A DNA stretch of 64,000 nt, taken from positions 5,729,501-5,793,500 of the forward strand of contig NZ_JBEJGX010000003.1 of the NCBI RefSeq assembly GCF_040253635.1. Direction: 5' to 3'. The notes under the pieces were generated by a model. The model was not told the origin of the DNA. It saw nothing but the letters and a program-made list of their open reading frames with translations, and did not search any database. The DNA comes from Streptomyces sp. Edi2. Its GTDB lineage: Bacteria > Actinomycetota > Actinomycetes > Streptomycetales > Streptomycetaceae. Both the position numbers and the translations under genes were made by a program. Below are positions 5,682-51,033 of the stretch, one piece after another. Every line of letters begins with the position of its first letter. The stretch's first letter is position 1.

Positions 5682-6698
5682 GTGACACATGATCCCAGCT
5701 CGCAAGGGCCGCTGTTGCAAGGTCGCAACAGAAAAGATGTTGCCGGAGCACCGCGGGCCGGTGCGGAAACGGGGGAGGCGGCCGAGCTCGGGGGCGATTC
5801 CTGGGCGGTGGTCCTTGCCCCGCGGCTCGCCCAGTTCACCGCCGTCGCCCGGCACGAACACGTCACCCGCGCCGCGCTGGAGCTCGGCATGCCGCAGCCG
5901 ACGCTCAGCCGTGCCCTCGTCCGCCTGGAGGACGACCTCGGCGTCGCCCTCTTCGCCCGCCATGGCCGCACCCTCTCCCTCACCACGGCCGGCCGGGCCT
6001 TCCTCGCCTCCACCGAGCGCGCGTTGACGGATCTGGAGCGGGCCACGGAGTCCGTACGGGCCGATGTCGACCCCGCCGCCGGGAAGGTGGCCTTCGGCTT
6101 TCTGCACACCCTGGGCTCGGAGACCGTGCCCGGCCTGATCCGGAGCTTCCGTGCCGACCACCCGCGCGTCCGTTTCCAGCTCGTCCAGAACTACGGCGAG
6201 GCCATGATCGAGCGGATGCGCGCCGGCGGCCTCGATCTGTGCCTGACCTCGCCGGTCCCGGACTACCCGGACCTGGTCGCCCGCCGGCTCGACGAGCAGA
6301 AGCTGCGTCTGGTCGTCCCGGACGACCATGCGCTGGCCGGCCGGAAGCGGGTCCGGCTCGCCGAGGCCTCCGGCGAGCTGTTCGTCACCCTCGAACCCGG
6401 CTACGGGCTGCGCCGGATCACCGACGCGCTGTGCGCCGAGGCGGGCTTCACCCCGCGGATCGCCTTCGAGGGGGAGGAGGCCGAGACGCTGCGCGGCCTG
6501 GTCGCGGCAGGCCTCGGCGTGGCGCTGCTGCCGCCGCCCGCCGTACCGCGCCCCGGAGTCGCCGAGCTGACGGTGACGGCCCCGCGCGCGGTCCGCGAGA
6601 TCGGCGTCGCCTGGCTGGACGGGCAGCCCGACACCCCGCCGGTCGCCGAATTCAAGAAGTTCCTGCTGAGCCGGCGGGGGAAGCTGCTGCCCAGGTGA
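5682..6698 (+). CDS. LysR-family transcriptional regulator
   Basis: 338 residues from GTG 5682. A LysR N-terminal HTH (LAPRLAQFTAVARHEHVTRAALELGMPQPTLSRALVRLEDDLG) is followed by a periplasmic-binding-like effector domain (AAGKVAFGFLHTLGSETVPGLIRSFRADHP onward). About 45 residues precede the HTH, which is unusual. An ATG at 5646 would place the candidate operator inside the gene, and a GTG at 5808 directly before LAPRLAQF would give a normal LysR N-terminus, so the start is uncertain. It probably controls the divergent MFS exporter. Confidence 0.88.
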   Translation: MTHDPSSQGPLLQGRNRKDVAGAPRAGAETGEAAELGGDSWAVVLAPRLAQFTAVARHEHVTRAALELGMPQPTLSRALVRLEDDLGVALFARHGRTLSLTTAGRAFLASTERALTDLERATESVRADVDPAAGKVAFGFLHTLGSETVPGLIRSFRADHPRVRFQLVQNYGEAMIERMRAGGLDLCLTSPVPDYPDLVARRLDEQKLRLVVPDDHALAGRKRVRLAEASGELFVTLEPGYGLRRITDALCAEAGFTPRIAFEGEEAETLRGLVAAGLGVALLPPPAVPRPGVAELTVTAPRAVREIGVAWLDGQPDTPPVAEFKKFLLSRRGKLLPR

Positions 6699-7754: not shown

Positions 7755-8915
7755 ATGACGAGCGAGACCACCACACTCCCGACCAGTGAACAGATCCTCC
7801 GTGCCCCCAAGGTGCTGCTCCACGACCACCTCGACGGCGGGCTCCGGCCGGCCACGATCGTCGACCTGGCCCGTGAGACCGGCTACGAGGGCCTGCCCGA
7901 GACCGACCCGGAGAAGCTCGGGGTCTGGTTCCGTGAGGCCGCCGACTCCGGCTCGCTCGAGCGCTACCTGGAGACCTTCGCGCACACCTGCGCCGTCATG
8001 CAGACCCGTGACGCACTGGCCCGGGTGGCCGCCGAGTGCGCCGAAGACCTTGCCGCGGACGGTGTGGTCTATGCCGAGGTCAGGTACGCGCCCGAGCAGC
8101 ACCTCGAACAGGGGCTGACCCTCGAAGAGGTCGTCGAGGCGGTCAACGAGGGCTTCCGTGAGGGCGAGCGGCGGGCCCGCGAGAAGGGCCACCGCATCCG
8201 CGTCGGCGCCCTGCTCACCGCGATGCGGCACGCCGCCCGCGCCCTGGAGATCGCCGAACTCGCCAACCGCTACCGGGACACCGGCGTCGTCGGCTTCGAC
8301 ATCGCGGGTGCGGAGGCCGGTTACCCGCCCACCCGCCACCTCGACGCGTTCGAGTACCTCAAGCGGGAGAACAACCACTTCACCATCCACGCCGGTGAGG
8401 CCTTCGGTCTGCCGTCCATCTGGCAGGCCCTGCAGTGGTGCGGCGCCGACCGCCTCGGCCACGGTGTCCGGATCATCGACGACATCGAGGTCGCCGACGA
8501 CGGCTCGGTCAAGCTCGGCCGGCTCGCCTCGTACGTCCGGGACAAGCGCATCCCGCTGGAGATGTGCCCGAGCTCCAACCTGCAGACCGGGGCCGCCCCC
8601 TCCTATGCGGAGCACCCCATCGGCCTGTTGCGCCGACTGCAGTTCCGGCTCACGGTCAACACCGACAACCGGCTGATGAGCGGCACGGACATGTCCCGGG
8701 AATTCGAGCACCTGGTCAAGACCTTCCGATACACGCTCGATGACATGCAGTGGTTTACAGTCAATGCGATGAAATCAGCGTTCATTCCTTTCGATGAACG
8801 TCTGGGCATGATCAATGACGTCATCAAGCCCGGTTACGCGGAATTGCGGGCCGAATGGCTGTTCCGTCCCCAGGGCTCAACTGGCCCTGTGAACAGTGCT
8901 TCTGACTCTGCGTGA
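7755..8915 (+). CDS. add: Adenosine deaminase
   Basis: 386 residues, cytosolic, hydrolysing (deoxy)adenosine to (deoxy)inosine with a Zn-dependent TIM barrel. Visible are the metal ligands HDH (23-25, in LLHDHLDGG), the base-binding DIAGAE region, FTIHAGE with the catalytic Glu, RLGHGVRI, and NTDN near the C-terminal metal Asp. The ATG has no strong Shine-Dalgarno sequence; TAGAGT six bases upstream suggests leaderless translation. The product inosine would go to the purine nucleoside phosphorylase encoded at 23.2 kb, whose promoter carries the same operator. A strong terminator follows. Confidence 0.96.
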
Positions 8916-19171: not shown

Positions 19172-20200
19172 TCAGTCCACCGTGACGTAGTCGGGGCCGG
19201 AGTAGCGGCCGGTGCTGAGCTTCTGGCGCTGCATCAGCAGGTCGTTGAGGAGGCTGGAGGCGCCGAAGCGGAACCAGTCGGCGGTCAGCCAGGGCTCGCC
19301 GAGGGTTTCGTTGACCATGACCAGGTACTTGATCGCGTCCTTGGTCGTACGGATACCGCCGGCCGGCTTCACCCCGACCTGGACGCCGGTCGTGGCGTGG
19401 AAGTCGCGGACCGCCTCCAGCATCAGGAGGGTGACCGGCGGGGTGGCGTTGACGGCGACCTTGCCGGTGGAGGTCTTGATGAAGTCGGCGCCCGCGAGCA
19501 TCGCCAGCCAGGAGACCCGGCGGACGTTGTCGTACGTCTGGAGCTCGCCGGTCTCGAAGATGACCTTGAGGTGCGCGGCCGTGCCTCCCCCAGTCTCCGA
19601 CCGGGAGGTGCCCCCAGGGCGGGCGCAGGCCTCCTTGACGGCCTTGATCTCCTCGAAGACGTCCATGTAGCGGCCGGAGAGGAAGGCGCCCCGGTCGATC
19701 ACCATGTCGATCTCGTCGGCGCCGGCCGCGACCGCGTCACGGGTGTCGGCGAGCTTGACCGGCAGCGCGGCGCGGCCGGCCGGGAAGGCGGTGGCGACGG
19801 ACGCGACGTGGATACCCGAGTCGCCGAGCGCTTCCTTGGCCGTGGCGACCATGTCCGGGTAGACGCAGATCGCCGCGACCTTGGGGCTGGTGCGGTCGGT
19901 GGGGTCCGGGTGGACGCCCTTGGCGCACAGCGCCCGGACCTTGCCCGGGGTGTCCGCGCCTTCGAGGGTCGTCAGGTCGATCATCGAGATGGCGAGATCG
20001 ATGGCGTACGCCTTCGCCGTCGTCTTGATCGAGCGGGTGCCGAGGGTGGCGGCGCGGGCTTCGAGGCCGACCGCGTCGACACCGGGGAGGCCGTGGAGGA
20101 AGCGGCGCAGCGCACCGTCGTCGGCGGTCACGTCCGCCATTGACGCCAGACGCCCCGCGGCTTCCTTGCCGTATGCGGGAACAGTGATGGGCATGGTCAC
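19172..20200 (-). CDS. deoC: Deoxyribose-phosphate aldolase
   Basis: 342 residues from GTG 20200 (ATG 20194 is the alternative). It splits 2-deoxyribose-5-phosphate into glyceraldehyde-3-phosphate and acetaldehyde. The TIM-barrel motifs are VAAICVYPDMV, DEIDMVIDRGAFLSG and the Schiff-base Lys in GADFIKTSTGK. Odd: an Arg/Gly/Ser/Thr-rich stretch (RPGGTSRSETGGGT, about residues 194-207) interrupts the usual run from KEAC to AHLKVIFETGEL and is encoded by a dispersed hairpin repeat. First gene of deoC-aldehyde dehydrogenase-truncated aldehyde dehydrogenase. Confidence 0.95.
   Translation of the reverse strand: MTMPITVPAYGKEAAGRLASMADVTADDGALRRFLHGLPGVDAVGLEARAATLGTRSIKTTAKAYAIDLAISMIDLTTLEGADTPGKVRALCAKGVHPDPTDRTSPKVAAICVYPDMVATAKEALGDSGIHVASVATAFPAGRAALPVKLADTRDAVAAGADEIDMVIDRGAFLSGRYMDVFEEIKAVKEACARPGGTSRSETGGGTAAHLKVIFETGELQTYDNVRRVSWLAMLAGADFIKTSTGKVAVNATPPVTLLMLEAVRDFHATTGVQVGVKPAGGIRTTKDAIKYLVMVNETLGEPWLTADWFRFGASSLLNDLLMQRQKLSTGRYSGPDYVTVD
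19584..19617. repeat. Dispersed hairpin repeat inserted in the deoC coding region
   Basis: CCTCCCCCAG (19584-19593), a spacer, CCGGGAGG (19601-19608) and TGCCCCCAG follow the same order as the intergenic copies at 46660-46692 and 49323-49355. Its length keeps deoC in frame. Confidence 0.8.
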
Positions 20201-45363: not shown

Positions 45364-46266
45364 ATGACGTCTCAACCACCGGAAAACCGGGACAAAGATG
45401 CCGGTCGCTGGAGCGATCTGGGCCGCCCTCCGCTGAACGCCACGGCGTTGCGCCGCGCCCTCGTACGGCCCGACTCGCTCTGGACCGCCCTGGACGTCGT
45501 CTCCGCCACCGGCTCCACCAATACCGACCTGGCGGCCCGCGCGGCACAAGGGGAGGCAGAGGGCGCCGTCCTCATCGCGGAGGAGCAGTCGGCCGGCCGC
45601 GGCCGCCTCGACCGCACCTGGTCGGCGCCCCCGCGCTCGGGCCTCTTCCTCTCCGTCTACCTCATCCCCCAAGTCCCCGTGGCGCGCTGGGGCTGGCTCC
45701 CCCTGCTCACCGGAGTCGCCACCGCCGCCGCCCTCTCCCGGACGGCCGGCGTCGACACGGCCCTCAAGTGGCCCAACGACCTGCTGGTAACTTCCGCGGA
45801 CTCCGACGCCCTGCGTCCCGGGGGCACCCTCACGGAACGCAAGGTGGGCGGCATCCTCGCCGAACGCGCCGGCCCCGGCGTCGTCATCGGCATCGGCCTC
45901 AACGTCTCCCTCACCGCCGCCGAACTCCCGGTGCCCGCCGCGGGCTCACTGACCCTGGCCGGCGCCAGTACCACCGACCGTGACCCGCTGCTGCGCGCCG
46001 TACTCCGCTCCCTGGAGCACTGGTACACCCAGTGGCAGTCCGCCGACGGCGACCCCGCCACCAGCGGCCTCCACGAGGCCTACGCCGCAGGCTGCGCCAC
46101 CCTCGGCCGCTCCGTACGCGCCGAGCTCCCCGGCGACACCGCCATCACCGGCGAGGCCGTAGCCATCGACGCCGACGGCCGCCTGGTACTGGCCACCGCA
46201 AACGGCGTACAGCAGCCGGTGGGCGCAGGGGACATCGTCCATTTGCGCCCGGCTACGGAGGCGTAG
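45364..46266 (+). CDS. birA: Biotin-[acetyl-CoA-carboxylase] ligase
   Basis: 300 residues. GRGRLDRTW (78-86) is the biotinyl-5'-AMP loop, KWPNDL and GGILAER (near 137-170) the biotin-binding and catalytic Lys regions, and GIGLNV follows. There is no N-terminal HTH, so it is a ligase without repressor function. It would biotinylate Lys554 of AccA2. Confidence 0.93.
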   Translation: MTSQPPENRDKDAGRWSDLGRPPLNATALRRALVRPDSLWTALDVVSATGSTNTDLAARAAQGEAEGAVLIAEEQSAGRGRLDRTWSAPPRSGLFLSVYLIPQVPVARWGWLPLLTGVATAAALSRTAGVDTALKWPNDLLVTSADSDALRPGGTLTERKVGGILAERAGPGVVIGIGLNVSLTAAELPVPAAGSLTLAGASTTDRDPLLRAVLRSLEHWYTQWQSADGDPATSGLHEAYAAGCATLGRSVRAELPGDTAITGEAVAIDADGRLVLATANGVQQPVGAGDIVHLRPATEA

Positions 46267-46320
46267 CGGCAGATCGGGCGGGGCGCCCACCGGGGGCTGT
46301 ATGAGTGACGGCTACCGGGG

Positions 46321-46754
46321 CGGCCGCCGTTGTTCGTCTCCGTGACGGCACCGGGGGCGGCGGGACGGCCGCCGACGGAGTGGGGTGGGCCGCCCGGCGG
46401 CGCCCGTGTCAGTGACGGCAACGGGTACGGCGGGACGGCCGCCGACGGAGTCGGGTGGGACACCCGCGACGCCTGTGTCAGTGACGGCAACGGGTACGGG
46501 GGACGGCCGCCGACGCCCATGTCGGTTGTCTGTGACGGCAATGGGTACGGCGGGAGGGCCGCCGACGACGTAGGCCGGAGGGGATGCCCGGTGCCCCGCC
46601 CGCAGGACCGGAGCGAACGCCGGGGCACTCTATGCCACGTACCAGGGCCGCCCGCGCCGTGGGGGCACCTCCCGGCCGAAGGCTGGGGGAGGGGTACCGG
46701 GCGTCCCCTCCGGCCCCCCACCCACGGCGGATACGCGCGACACCGGCCCCCACC
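46321..46754 (+). repeat. Left arm of a long inverted repeat
   Basis: 434 bp nearly identical, in reverse complement, to 49261-49624. The outer half consists of units beginning GTGACGGCAACGGGTACGG (starts at 46342, 46412, 46481 and 46532); the inner half carries the dispersed hairpin repeat (46660-46692). It has one more 69-bp unit than the right arm. Confidence 0.88.
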
Positions 46755-46955
46755 ACCCGCTGAACAGCACTGAACCGCACCGAACCACACCCCCCGCCGC
46801 GCCGACCCACCCCCACCACTTCCTTGTCCATAGCCAACATGTGAGAGTGAGCCAGAGCACACCTGCCGTATCGTTGAGGCGGTCCGCCAGGGAGCGGACC
46901 ACCGGCGAGCAGTGATCGGAAGGGCAGTGCGCAGGGATCGGACAGGGAGCGGCCG

Positions 46956-48161
46956 GTGACCGCCGACGACTCGGGCGCCACCCCGCGCGACATGGACACC
47001 GAGGACGACGCCGTGCGCGACGTCCCCGTCGACGATCCCGCACGCGGCTGGGGCGACACCGCCACCGGCAGGGGCGAGACCACCGCCAACGGCGACGAGA
47101 ACAACATCGCCGTCCGCCTCGAACATCTCATCCTCGGCGCCGACCGCCGCTACACACCGTTCCAGGCGGCCCGCGCCGCCGGCGTCTCCATGGACCTCGC
47201 GGCCCGCTTCTGGCGGGCCATGGGCTTCGCCGACATCGGCCAGGTCAAGGCCCTCACCGAGGCCGATGTGCTGGCCCTGCGCCGGCTCGCCGGCCTCGTC
47301 GAGGCCGGCCTGCTGAGCGAGGCCATGGCCGTACAGGTCGCCCGCTCCACGGGCCAGACCACCGCCCGTCTCGCCGACTGGCAGATCGACTCCTTCCTGG
47401 AGGGCCTGACCGAGCCGCAGGACTCCGGCCTGACCCGGACGGAGATCACCTACCCGCTGGTCGAGCTGCTGCTCCCCGAGCTGGAGGAGTTCCTGGTCTA
47501 CGTCTGGCGCCGCCAGCTCGCCGCCGCCACCGGCCGCGTCGTCCGGGCCCAGGACGACGCGGAAATGGTCGACCGCCGCCTCGCCGTCGGCTTCGCCGAC
47601 CTGGTCGGTTTCACCCGTCTGACCCGCCGCCTGGAGGAGGAGGAGCTGGGCGAGCTGGTGGAGGCGTTCGAGACGACCTGCTCCGACCTGGTGGCCGCGC
47701 ATGGCGGCCGGCTCATCAAGACCCTCGGCGACGAGGTCCTTTTCTCCGCCGACGACGCGGGTATCGCCGCCGAGATCGGGCTCCGGCTGATCGAGACGAT
47801 GACCAATGACGAGACGATGCCTGAGCTGCGGGTCGGCATCGCTTTCGGCACCGTCACGACCCGGATGGGCGATGTCTTCGGTACGACGGTCAACCTCGCC
47901 AGCCGCCTCACCTCGATAGCGCCGAAGGACACCGTGCTGGTGGACGAGGCGTTCGCCGAGGAACTGGGCCGTATCGGTGACGCGCCGGTCTCCGAGGCCG
48001 ACGCCGCGGCCGCGGAGAAGGCGGCCGCGGAGGGCACCGGCGCCCCGCCGCCGTCGTACCGCTTCGCCCTCCAGCCGATGTGGCAGCGACCGGTGCGAGG
48101 CCTGGGTGTGGTCGAACCCTGGCTGCTGAGCCGCCGCCCAGTTCAGGGCACCGGCGACTGA
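46956..48161 (+). CDS. cya: Adenylate cyclase (class III)
   Basis: 401 residues from GTG 46956 (GGGAGC upstream). An acidic N-terminus leads to a helical sensory part (RLEHLILGADRRYTPFQAARAAGVSMDLAARFWRAMGF) and a class III catalytic domain: VGFADLVGFTRLTR (metal Asp), LIKTLGDEVLFSADD, VGIAFGTVTTRMGDVFGTTVNLASRL (transition-state Asn/Arg). In S. coelicolor the single Cya makes cAMP for germination and development through Crp. No membrane segment. Located between the inverted repeats. Confidence 0.93.
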   Translation: MTADDSGATPRDMDTEDDAVRDVPVDDPARGWGDTATGRGETTANGDENNIAVRLEHLILGADRRYTPFQAARAAGVSMDLAARFWRAMGFADIGQVKALTEADVLALRRLAGLVEAGLLSEAMAVQVARSTGQTTARLADWQIDSFLEGLTEPQDSGLTRTEITYPLVELLLPELEEFLVYVWRRQLAAATGRVVRAQDDAEMVDRRLAVGFADLVGFTRLTRRLEEEELGELVEAFETTCSDLVAAHGGRLIKTLGDEVLFSADDAGIAAEIGLRLIETMTNDETMPELRVGIAFGTVTTRMGDVFGTTVNLASRLTSIAPKDTVLVDEAFAEELGRIGDAPVSEADAAAAEKAAAEGTGAPPPSYRFALQPMWQRPVRGLGVVEPWLLSRRPVQGTGD

Positions 48162-48167
48162 GCCGCA

Positions 48168-48236
48168 GGCTCGGCCTCAGGCCCAGCCCCAGGCCCAGCC
48201 TCAGGCCCAGCCCCAGCCCCAGCCCCAACCCAGAGA
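48168..48236. repeat. CAGGCCCAGCC-type tandem repeat
   Basis: About six copies of a degenerate 6-12-bp unit (CAGGCCCAGCCC/CAGCCC) directly after the cya stop. Confidence 0.7.
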
Positions 48237-48334
48237 GCCCTCCGGCCCGAGCCGCCGTCCCGTCCCTGTCCCCCAGGCCACCCACCTGGCATGATCCCCA
48301 CGTCAGGTCAACGCCCGTTAACAGGGAGGGTTGC

Positions 48335-49156
48335 ATGGAACGGCAGGGGCAACGGCAACAATTCGGCGCGGACGGCTGGGTGGCCGTCGAGCGCCACGGC
48401 CACAACGGCCACGTGGCGGAGCTGATCATGGACCGCCCGAAGGCCATGAACGCCGTCTCGACGGCCATGGCCGACAGCTTGGCGCAGGCCTGCGCCGAGC
48501 TGGCCGCGGACCGCTCCGTACGGGCGGTGGTCCTCAGCTCCACCCACGAGCGGGCGTTCTGCGTGGGCGCGGACCTCAAGGAGCGCAACTCCTTCACGGA
48601 CGCGGACCTGATGCGCCAGCGTCCGCACACCCGCGCCGCGTACACCGGCGTACTGGAGCTGCCGATGCCCACCATCGCGGCGGTGCACGGCTTCGCGCTC
48701 GGCGGCGGCTTCGAGCTGGCGCTCGCCTGCGATCTGATCGTCGCGGACGGTACGGCGGAGGTGGGGCTGCCGGAGGTGTCGGTGGGCGTCATCCCCGGCG
48801 GTGGGGGCACCCAGCTGCTGCCGCGCCGGGTGGGTGCGGCGCGGGCCGCCGAGCTGGTTTTCACCGCGCGGCGGGTACGGGCGGCCGAGGCCGCGGAGCT
48901 GGGCCTGGTGGACCGGCTGGTCGCGGACGGGCAGGACCGGGCCGGGGCGCTGGAGCTGGCGGCCACGATCGCGCGTCATTCGCCGGTCGGGCTGCGTGCC
49001 GCCAAGCGTGCGATGCGTCTCGGGCACGGGCTGGATCTGCGGGCCGGTCTGGAGGTGGAGGACGGCGCCTGGCGCAGTGTGGCCTTCTCCGGGGATCGGG
49101 CGGAGGGTGTGGCGGCCTTCAACGAGAAGCGTGAACCGGAGTGGCCTGGGGAGTGA
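48335..49156 (+). CDS. Enoyl-CoA hydratase/isomerase-family protein
   Basis: 273 residues from ATG 48335 (AGGGAGGG upstream). Crotonase fold: VAELIMDRPKAMNAVS, AFCVGADLKERNSF (oxyanion), AAVHGFALGGGFELALACDLIVA with the catalytic Glu regions GLPEVSVGVIPGGGGTQLLPR. Substrate unknown. Same strand as cya, 173 bases away, both inside the inverted repeats. A promoter patch (TTGACC... on the opposite sense near 48300) lies in the gap. Confidence 0.9.
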   Translation: MERQGQRQQFGADGWVAVERHGHNGHVAELIMDRPKAMNAVSTAMADSLAQACAELAADRSVRAVVLSSTHERAFCVGADLKERNSFTDADLMRQRPHTRAAYTGVLELPMPTIAAVHGFALGGGFELALACDLIVADGTAEVGLPEVSVGVIPGGGGTQLLPRRVGAARAAELVFTARRVRAAEAAELGLVDRLVADGQDRAGALELAATIARHSPVGLRAAKRAMRLGHGLDLRAGLEVEDGAWRSVAFSGDRAEGVAAFNEKREPEWPGE

Positions 49157-49182
49157 CGTTGGCCGGTGGGGGCTGCCGTTGC

Positions 49183-49303
49183 GCGTCTCCGCCGTGGGTG
49201 GGGGCCGGCGTCGGGCGTCTCCGCCGTGGGTGGGGGCCGGCGTCGGGCGTCTCCGCCGTGGGTGGGGGCCGGTGTCGCGCGTCTCCGCCGTGGGTGGGGG
49301 GCC
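49183..49303 (+). repeat. 32-bp tandem repeat, nearly four copies
   Basis: GCGTCTCCGCCGTGGGTGGG begins at 49183, 49215, 49247 and 49279. One copy lies in the right inverted-repeat arm; the left arm holds a single copy (about 46719-46738). Confidence 0.85.
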
Positions 49304-49624
49304 GGAGGGGATGCCCGGTACCCCTCCCCCAGCCTTCGGCCGGGAGGTGCCCCCACGGCGCGGGCGGCCCTGGTACGTGGCATAGAGTGCCCCGGCGTTC
49401 GCTCCGGTCCTGCGGGCGGGGCACCGGGCATCCCCTCCGGCCTATGTCGTCGGCGGCTGTCCCGCCGTACCCATTGCCGTCACAGACAACCGACATGGGC
49501 GTTGGCGGCCGTCCCCCGTACCCGTTGCCGTCACTGACACGGGCGTCGCAGGTTTCCCGGCCAACTCCGTCGGCGGCCGTCCCACCGTCCCCGTTGCCGT
49601 CACCGAGACGAACAACGGCGGCCG
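49261..49624 (-). repeat. Right arm of a long inverted repeat
   Basis: Reverse complement of 46321-46754 with few mismatches but one 69-70-bp internal unit fewer. Contains the dispersed hairpin repeat at 49323-49355. The two arms enclose about 2.5 kb with cya and the enoyl-CoA hydratase gene. Confidence 0.88.
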
Positions 49625-49776
49625 TCCCGTCCCGCCCCTGGGCCAGGAGCGACCCGAGGAGCCAAGCGACGAGCGGCGCCGATAACGACGCGAATAACGC
49701 CTAGGTGTCAATCACCTACGGAAAGGGGCGAAAGGGGTTAAACATTCCTACGCTGTAATAACGGAGCGTGCTCACG

Positions 49777-51033
49777 GTGACGGAATGCGAGGATCCGGTG
49801 ACGGGCGAGGGCGATGCGAGGCTGCGGGCCGTGGTGGAGCTGGCGCAGGCGATGGCGGCCGCGCATACACCGCGCGACTCGGCGCACGCCGCGGCGCAGG
49901 GAGTGCGCCAGGCCCTGGGGGGATCCTTCGCGGCCATCTCGAAGTGGGAGCGCGAGCTGGGCAAGCTGCGCGTGCTGGTCAACGTAGGCGAACTCGCCGC
50001 CGACGAGGAGGAGTTCCCGGACGACGAGAGCTACCCCGTCCATGAATTCCCGGAGATCGTCGGCTTCCTGCACGAGCAGTGGGCGGGCGGTGGCGAGCCC
50101 AGTGCCTGGGTGGAGACCGCTGAGGAGCCGCACGACGGCCCGGTGCCCGCGGCCGCGGCGCAGTGGCGGGGCGGGGACGGAGGCGGGGGTGGAAACGGGA
50201 GTAGCGGTAGAAGCGGGGTCAGGGACGGGGTCGGCGGCGCCAACCCGCAGCGGGTGGCCGCGCTGCGCCGTCGCGGACGGGGTTGCTGCGTGGTCGCGCC
50301 GATCGTGCTGCACGGCCGGGCGTGGGGCGAGCTGTATGTCGCGCGGCGGACGGGCGAGCCGGTCTTCGGCCGGCCGGACGCCGACTTCGCGAGTGTGCTC
50401 GCCGCGGTGACGGCCGCCGGGATCGCCCAGACCGAGCGGCTGGCGGAGGTCCGCCGGCTGGCCTTCACGGACTCCCTGACCGGCCTCGCCAACCGTCGTG
50501 CCGTCGATATGCGGCTGGACGAGGCGCTGGAGCTGCACCGCAGGGACGAGGTGGTGGTCAGCCTGGTGGTGTGTGACCTCAACGGGCTGAAGCGGGTGAA
50601 CGACTCGCGCGGCCATGCGGTCGGGGACCGCTTGCTGGAGCGCTTCGGGTCGGTGCTGTCCCTGTGCGGGGCGATGCTGCCGGGCATGCTGGCCGCCCGG
50701 CTCGGCGGCGATGAGTTCTGCCTGCTCGCGGTGGGCCCGCCGGCCGACGAGGTGGTCAAGGTGGCCGGTGAACTGTGCGACCGGGCGGGGGAGTTGGACC
50801 TCGGTGAAGGGGTGGCGGTCGGAGTCGCCTCGACCGGCGACCCGATCGGGCCGGTGCGCAGCGCCCGCCGGCTCTTCCGGCTCGCGGACGCCGCGCAGTA
50901 CAAGGCCAAGGCGGCGCGGTCGGGTGAGCCGGTGGTCGCCGGGCGGCACGGCGGCAAGGATGACCCCGTCGTCCGGCTCGCGGACGCCCCGGACCGGCGG
51001 TCGGGGCCGGAGCGCCGCCGCTTCCGGAGGTGA
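49777..51033 (+). CDS. GGDEF-domain diguanylate cyclase with N-terminal GAF-like domain
   Basis: 418 residues from GTG 49777; GGAG lies about nine bases upstream (GTG 49768 is too close to it). The N-terminal half is GAF-like (LAQAMAAAHTPRDSAHAAAQGVRQALGG, then CCVVAPIVLHGRAWGELYVARR) with a Gly/Ser-rich linker; the GGDEF domain has DSLTGLANRRAVD and an intact GGDEF (310-314). No EAL domain and no RxxD I-site directly before GGDEF. It would synthesise c-di-GMP, the brake on Streptomyces development through BldD. Confidence 0.9.
   Translation: MTECEDPVTGEGDARLRAVVELAQAMAAAHTPRDSAHAAAQGVRQALGGSFAAISKWERELGKLRVLVNVGELAADEEEFPDDESYPVHEFPEIVGFLHEQWAGGGEPSAWVETAEEPHDGPVPAAAAQWRGGDGGGGGNGSSGRSGVRDGVGGANPQRVAALRRRGRGCCVVAPIVLHGRAWGELYVARRTGEPVFGRPDADFASVLAAVTAAGIAQTERLAEVRRLAFTDSLTGLANRRAVDMRLDEALELHRRDEVVVSLVVCDLNGLKRVNDSRGHAVGDRLLERFGSVLSLCGAMLPGMLAARLGGDEFCLLAVGPPADEVVKVAGELCDRAGELDLGEGVAVGVASTGDPIGPVRSARRLFRLADAAQYKAKAARSGEPVVAGRHGGKDDPVVRLADAPDRRSGPERRRFRR

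Follow-up and report, generated by a model that had tools for sequence, protein, structure and literature searches.

We investigated a pair of long inverted repeats that enclose the genes cya and ech in a 64,000-nt stretch of the Streptomyces sp. Edi2 genome (contig NZ_JBEJGX010000003.1, positions 5,729,501 to 5,793,500; hereafter the window, in whose coordinates positions are given unless stated otherwise). In our assessment it is likely that the left arm stems from an old, dispersed, non-coding Streptomyces element, and that the right arm is a later, flipped copy. The unexpected part is the family to which both arms belong: its members occupy fixed sites, and their sequences are homogenised genome by genome.

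Inverted arms and their hairpin units

An inverted-repeat search of the window returned arms at 46377-46763 and 49252-49638, which are 387 nt long, 92% complementary and gap-free, with 2488 nt between them; judged by eye, this match exceeds chance by far. A second inverted match (46316-46389 and 49556-49629; 74 nt, 89%) is offset by an extra unit of about 70 bp in the left arm. The left arm overall occupies 46316-46763 (plus strand) in the gap between birA and cya (46267-46955), and the right arm occupies 49252-49638 (minus strand) in the gap between ech and a GGDEF gene, here ggdef (49157-49767). The preliminary description, made from the letters of the sequence, had placed the arms at 46321-46754 and 49261-49624 and had reported an additional 69-70-bp unit on the left; our searches agree on both points. 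The enclosed genes were identified with Pfam as cya (46956-48161, plus strand; Guanylate_cyc, PF00211), encoding a class III adenylate/guanylate cyclase, and ech (48335-49156, plus strand; ECH_1, PF00378), encoding an enoyl-CoA hydratase/isomerase, and the flanking genes as birA (BPL) and the GGDEF gene.

Each arm consists of outer units starting with GTGACGG and an inner imperfect palindrome of about 150 bp with 33-nt stems, located at 46573-46605/46683-46715 in the left arm and at 49300-49332/49410-49442 in the right. In the left arm the tandem units span 46335-46567 (plus strand, period about 70/51), and a tandem-repeat search reported a period-70 array of 2.6 copies at 46335-46515. The same search found a 32-bp array of 4.4 copies at the inner end of the right arm (49165-49305), which is absent from the preliminary description. 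The arms differ in substitutions, in the unit of about 70 bp and in the 32-bp array, and are thus apparently not one sequence placed twice by the assembler; we therefore dropped an assembly duplicate as their source.

The palindromic core belongs to a family of hairpin units. The host genome comprises 9.8 Mb in 6 contigs, and the closest named relatives of its cya are Streptomyces. We identified 11 copies of the 153-nt core in this genome, all on contig C3; beyond the window they form four pairs and one single unit. Further copies of the arm, as anticipated in the preliminary description, were found for the hairpin part, and the GTGACGG part gave no further strong match in the host genome (next best E 1.7e-4). 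Together with fetched loci of eight further genomes, the dataset contains 61 units of about 120-170 nt (a further fetched locus, L176, yielded no unit). These resolve into two classes, A and B, with distinct stems and flanks. Both window units are B-type (46568-46720, sense strand plus, and 49295-49447, sense strand minus, the latter 99% identical to the former), and the 5' flank of the B unit is similar to the sequence that the window carries in tandem as GTGACGG units. All 22 two-unit loci read minus...plus around a non-coding spacer (one of them, L157, is degenerate), and 15 loci contain a single unit; the window is the only plus...minus pair, and the only pair with genes inside. The spacers of the host-genome pairs, and of several others, contain repeats with a CCTGCCAAGG-like motif, whose number varies.

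For the folding of the unit, we aligned 52 of the 61 units, omitting the two of L157, those of L163, L172 and L174 (truncated or odd), and four from G088 (one each at L148, L150, L151 and L156). In the consensus stem, 98.9% of cells were paired, compared to 90.3% in shuffles. Double-change cells numbered 147 against 53.4 in shuffles, and compensated pairs 11 of 33 against 6.7, neither value being reached in 500 shuffles. On the outward-reading strand we counted 154 G.T cells and 4 A.C cells, an excess on one strand which suggests, from the alignment, that the folded form is a single strand, either as RNA or as single-stranded DNA. A composite folded far more stably than its shuffles (z -11.5), as is expected for a palindrome.

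We additionally observed an optional inner mini-hairpin, GTGGGGGCACCTCCC...GGGGGAG, at window positions 46660-46691, about 49324-49356 and 19584-19632, and in 21 of the 52 aligned units. It also matches alone elsewhere in the host genome and in many other Streptomyces genomes, and appears to be a dispersed repeat of its own, nested within the unit.

Fixed sites, homogenised sequences and the origin of the right arm

We compared the flanks of the element loci between genomes. All six host-genome sites matched the same place, on both flanks, in at least three other genomes. The birA|cya site is common to G414, G335 and Streptomyces sp. MspMP-M5; the sites of L021, L022 and L024 are each common to G088, G414 and G372; that of L023 to G088, G414, G372 and G318; and that of L025 to G088, G414 and G215. 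The birA|cya and L024 groups, which were linked through a paralogous carboxylase gene, were split by hand. Two more sites are common to other genomes only (G088/G318 and G215/G199), and nine loci had no counterpart at any other locus in this comparison. Among named species, S. inhibens has the sites of L023 and L025, and S. kronopolitis that of L023. At L024's site the neighbouring gene lies 437-447 nt away in four genomes, and at L023's site 140-175 nt away in five. Pair orientation is consistent wherever two units remain (5/5 at L023's site, 3/3 at L021's and 2/2 at L022's). Judged by their flanks, the element positions are old.

The sequences at these sites follow a different pattern. Across five sites and four genomes (29 of 31 units, the two without a clear A or B class being omitted), mean unit identity was 0.920 for units of the same genome at different sites (n=41), compared to 0.861 for units of the same site in different genomes (n=32) and 0.859 where both differed (n=123). 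The observed value was reached in none of 1000 shuffles of the genome labels, and in 463 of 1000 shuffles of the site labels. The two units within one locus were 0.827 identical (n=13), indicating that the pair is not homogenised within itself. On these identities, a site retains the element but not its sequence, and old positions carry sequences homogenised per genome. The combination of orthologous old positions and per-genome homogenised sequences is the pattern of concerted evolution, and suggests that copies as far as about 4 Mb from each other on one contig exchange sequence. We noted separately that the element sites at 2181600/6451000 and 2385850/6259100 of G000:C3 form near-symmetric pairs around 4.32 Mb of this 9.1-Mb contig, which may reflect chance or, if the replication origin is located there, rearrangement around it.

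Within the genus, the core search identified the element in 8 of 392 genomes, host included, at E<=1e-12, which is a lower bound as two candidates were scored per genome. A short-pattern search matched 70 of the 392, and its reversed control also matched many, so that single matches mean little; six genomes had at least three forward-plus-reverse matches. Among 20 named genomes, clear units were identified in S. inhibens (five pairs), Streptomyces sp. CT34 (two pairs and further units) and sp. MspMP-M5, and weaker units in S. rhizoryzae and S. kronopolitis; S. lydicus, S. noursei and NRRL S-337 contain the mini-hairpin stretch only. A covariance-model search of 21 genomes around G414 found units in one, G414 itself.

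The nearest element-bearing genomes, by the genes considered here, are G414 and G372, with cya 97% identical in both. At the same place as the left arm, the birA|cya gap of G414 contains a B unit (97%) and some GTGACGG units, fewer than in the window; this, and the similarity of the tandem unit to the B 5' flank, supports the earlier proposal that arms built of GTGACGG units and a dispersed hairpin grew by repeat expansion. In the same gap, G372 retains only the last 34 nt of the unit, G318 a 30-nt stretch resembling the outer arm, G335 one minus unit and sp. MspMP-M5 (L051) two units. The ech|ggdef gap, by comparison, was without an arm in all seven element-bearing genomes compared (G414, G372, G088, G318, G215, G199 and G335). 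Both arms share the locus-specific tandem units, indicating that one was copied from the other, and we set aside two independent insertions for this reason. In gap-free columns of the left arm, right arm and G414, the two arms agreed against G414 in 24, left and G414 against right in 21, and right and G414 against left in 3. From these counts, the right arm probably originated as an inverted copy of the older left arm in this lineage only, after the split from G414, and has since changed faster.

We propose the following sequence of events. The usual form of the element is two outward-facing hairpin units around a spacer (minus...plus), in fixed intergenic positions, where copies may overwrite one another by gene conversion. 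The left arm would represent one half of such an element, namely a B-type hairpin unit whose 5' flank has been multiplied in tandem. A flipped, non-reciprocal copy of this arm could then have reached the next intergenic gap, 2.5 kb away, through ectopic copying of a similar kind or through template switching during replication, and would form the right arm. The working form of the unit would be one folded strand, RNA or single-stranded DNA, and the element a slow selfish repeat of a kind similar to REPINs (hairpin-forming doublets of repetitive extragenic palindromic, REP, sequences), not a switch of cya. Taken alone, the selfish, single-strand mode of working has in our view slightly less than an even chance of being correct. 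The full combination, of a large double-hairpin element with sites kept across species, copies overwritten by strand-specific copying without a Y1 transposase, and a window that represents a flipped copy at a new site, we regard as unlikely to hold in every part.

Several observations weigh against this account. The birA|cya site is patchy: among 80 named cya loci only L051 (sp. MspMP-M5) has the element, the other 79 giving no match to either unit model, and one genome per species was compared. Eight further columns differ in all three of left arm, right arm and G414, and the 24 bases shared by the arms could also be explained if two older arms had converted one another and G414 had lost its right arm. 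In the stem, many double changes track the split between A and B, so that independent events are fewer than cells; further pair types were no more frequent than in shuffles (24 against 22.2; 69/500), and three columns contribute 116 of the 154 G.T cells. The case for gene conversion is drawn from identity only.

Alternative explanations and known repeat classes

Alternatively, the units might be transcribed and, kept by selection, terminate transcription in both directions, serve as RNase III targets or stabilise mRNA 3' ends; we consider this explanation somewhat unlikely. A polymerase crossing a pair in either direction meets the second unit in sense orientation, and the covariation and one-sided G.T pairs of the stem, the stability of a composite relative to shuffles and the conservation of sites across genomes are all consistent with such a role. 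Of 38 loci, 19 have tandem flanking genes, 14 convergent and 1 divergent ones, with 4 unclear; the gene calls are rough, and nearer genes were missed, as several of the neighbours listed are at a distance of about 1 kb or more. In many bacteria, intergenic stem-loops cluster at gene 3' ends (PMC1590033). Against this, lone units at L025's site read antisense to the gene on either side (3 of 3 genomes), the distribution is patchy, the arms have no T-rich tail and include neither of the terminator-like sites found, and conversion within genomes requires no RNA role. A search of Rfam with window positions 45600-50400 at E<=1 gave nothing at gathering score (one weak sub-threshold match lies inside ech), and six element loci gave no matches.

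We regard it as improbable that the element is an active miniature inverted-repeat transposable element (MITE) or REPIN that a transposase mobilises in trans, with the arms as two insertions. Terminal inverted repeats of the MITE type are present, as 33-nt inverted ends (88-91%) in both window units, and an inverted doublet with spacer is the layout of a REPIN (inverted hairpin-forming REP units with a spacer; PMC3116915). Yet the tandem units shared by the arms imply copying of one from the other, and all six host-genome sites are old. In a search confined to this transposase family, the Y1 transposase (PF01797) was identified in just 2 of 11 element-bearing genomes (one a partial match) and in 5 of 9 others, and a Y1 partner was set aside. 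At birA|cya, alignment with five element-free relatives was too diverged to define a clean empty site, and no target duplication was seen. The phage collection gave no match to the element, and the plasmid collection gave pieces of 5-9% of the query in 6 records; no parent autonomous transposon with the same ends was found in these two collections, chromosomes not being searched. No identification was obtained from Rfam, phages or plasmids. The only Y1_Tnp (IS200/IS605-type) match of the host genome lies at G000:C3:5727913-5728275 (L207), about 1.2 kb before the window.

Among known repeats, the element resembles REPINs and REP doublets, such as bacterial interspersed mosaic elements, in its two inverted hairpin units with a spacer, its extragenic and dispersed occurrence and its strand-specific G.T pairs, which are noted for REP families too (PMC3116915, PMC3733652). 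This layout is seen in the 22 minus...plus loci, and not in the 15 single-unit loci or in the plus...minus window. REP sequences are described as short palindromes of 20-40 bp, often with more than 100 copies per genome (PMC3733652, PMC2817692), whereas the Streptomyces unit is larger, at about 125-150 nt, and has 11 copies as opposed to hundreds. A REPIN would be expected to have a conserved GTAG (or CGTC) tag at one end of the stem, and here GTAGG stands at the stem start in just 10 of 52 aligned units (CGTC was not counted). The Streptomyces element differs further in that a Y1 transposase accompanies it in only 2 of 11 genomes, and in that different species share its sites although each genome has homogenised the sequences. 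In view of its size, copy number, tag and the distribution of the Y1 transposase, we do not class it as a REPIN.

MITEs and the Correia, enterobacterial repetitive intergenic consensus (ERIC) and Ype/Efa repeats are likewise repeated intergenic stem-loop DNA of about 100-150 bp, a size class that includes Correia and ERIC. These repeats come from other bacteria and were likened by description, not by sequence. The doublet layout and the conservation of sites across species are extras of the Streptomyces element, for which we found neither a target duplication (birA|cya gap) nor a parent transposon (phages and plasmids). Ype/Efa and similar repeats also lie near gene 3' ends (PMC1590033). We found no published description of the element by title or abstract start, with most subscription journals outside reach.

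Finally, the preliminary description had proposed that recombination between the arms would invert the 2.5-kb segment and so change the direction of cya and ech, and had suggested comparing their orientation among relatives. Among the 80 named cya loci fetched, all four genes (birA, cya, ech and ggdef) can be seen in 70, and the order and orientation of the window are kept in 69 of them. In the remaining locus, L071 (S. albus F-4971), the ech-ggdef pair is inverted between cya and hutH, cya itself is not inverted, and no inverted repeat of at least 50 nt was found in the locus. All seven element-bearing genomes compared retain the birA-cya-ech-ggdef order, and no relative examined has cya-ech inverted. 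The proposed invertible segment was thus not borne out by these orientations, nor by the ech|ggdef gaps that lack the second arm.

The cya leader (46819-46955), about 110-145 nt before the start, is 92-97% identical in several named relatives, in which the sequence upstream of it does not align; this suggests, on sequence conservation, that cya has a conserved regulatory leader. The leader lies inside the segment, and a conserved stretch before ggdef lies outside it, so that an inversion would be expected to move whole units and not to separate a promoter from its gene. A promoter inside the arms was set aside, as no sigma-70-like site was found in 46200-49800, a weak test in a GC-rich genome. 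Only one of the 80 loci has an inverted pair, with arms of 50 nt or more, in the two gaps that border cya-ech, and this is a different repeat from that of the window: in L061 (Streptomyces sp. PsTaAH-137), positions 5821-5895 and 7982-8058 form a 77-nt repeat (90%). It contains a GCAGTTCCCCGCGCCCC stretch, which is also found beside the A unit in host-genome loci such as L023 and L024.

Inverted arms of about 390 nt at 92% identity, as flank both genes here, suffice for homologous recombination. A switch that flips cya-ech and alters its expression nevertheless appears very improbable indeed: it shares with known invertible DNA switches the inverted repeats around whole genes, but gene order is retained as above, with the sole exception a different inversion, change has been faster in the right arm (21 columns) than in the left (3), as expected of a copy that is not under selection, and no recombinase was identified among the six neighbouring genes assigned by Pfam, the rest of the window not being scanned for one.

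Implications

Dispersed bacterial repeats are usually attributed to transposition. If the copies of the element exchange sequence as proposed, they would serve as natural markers for ectopic recombination in Streptomyces and would give rise to long inverted repeats next to core genes, and they need not be mistaken for switches.

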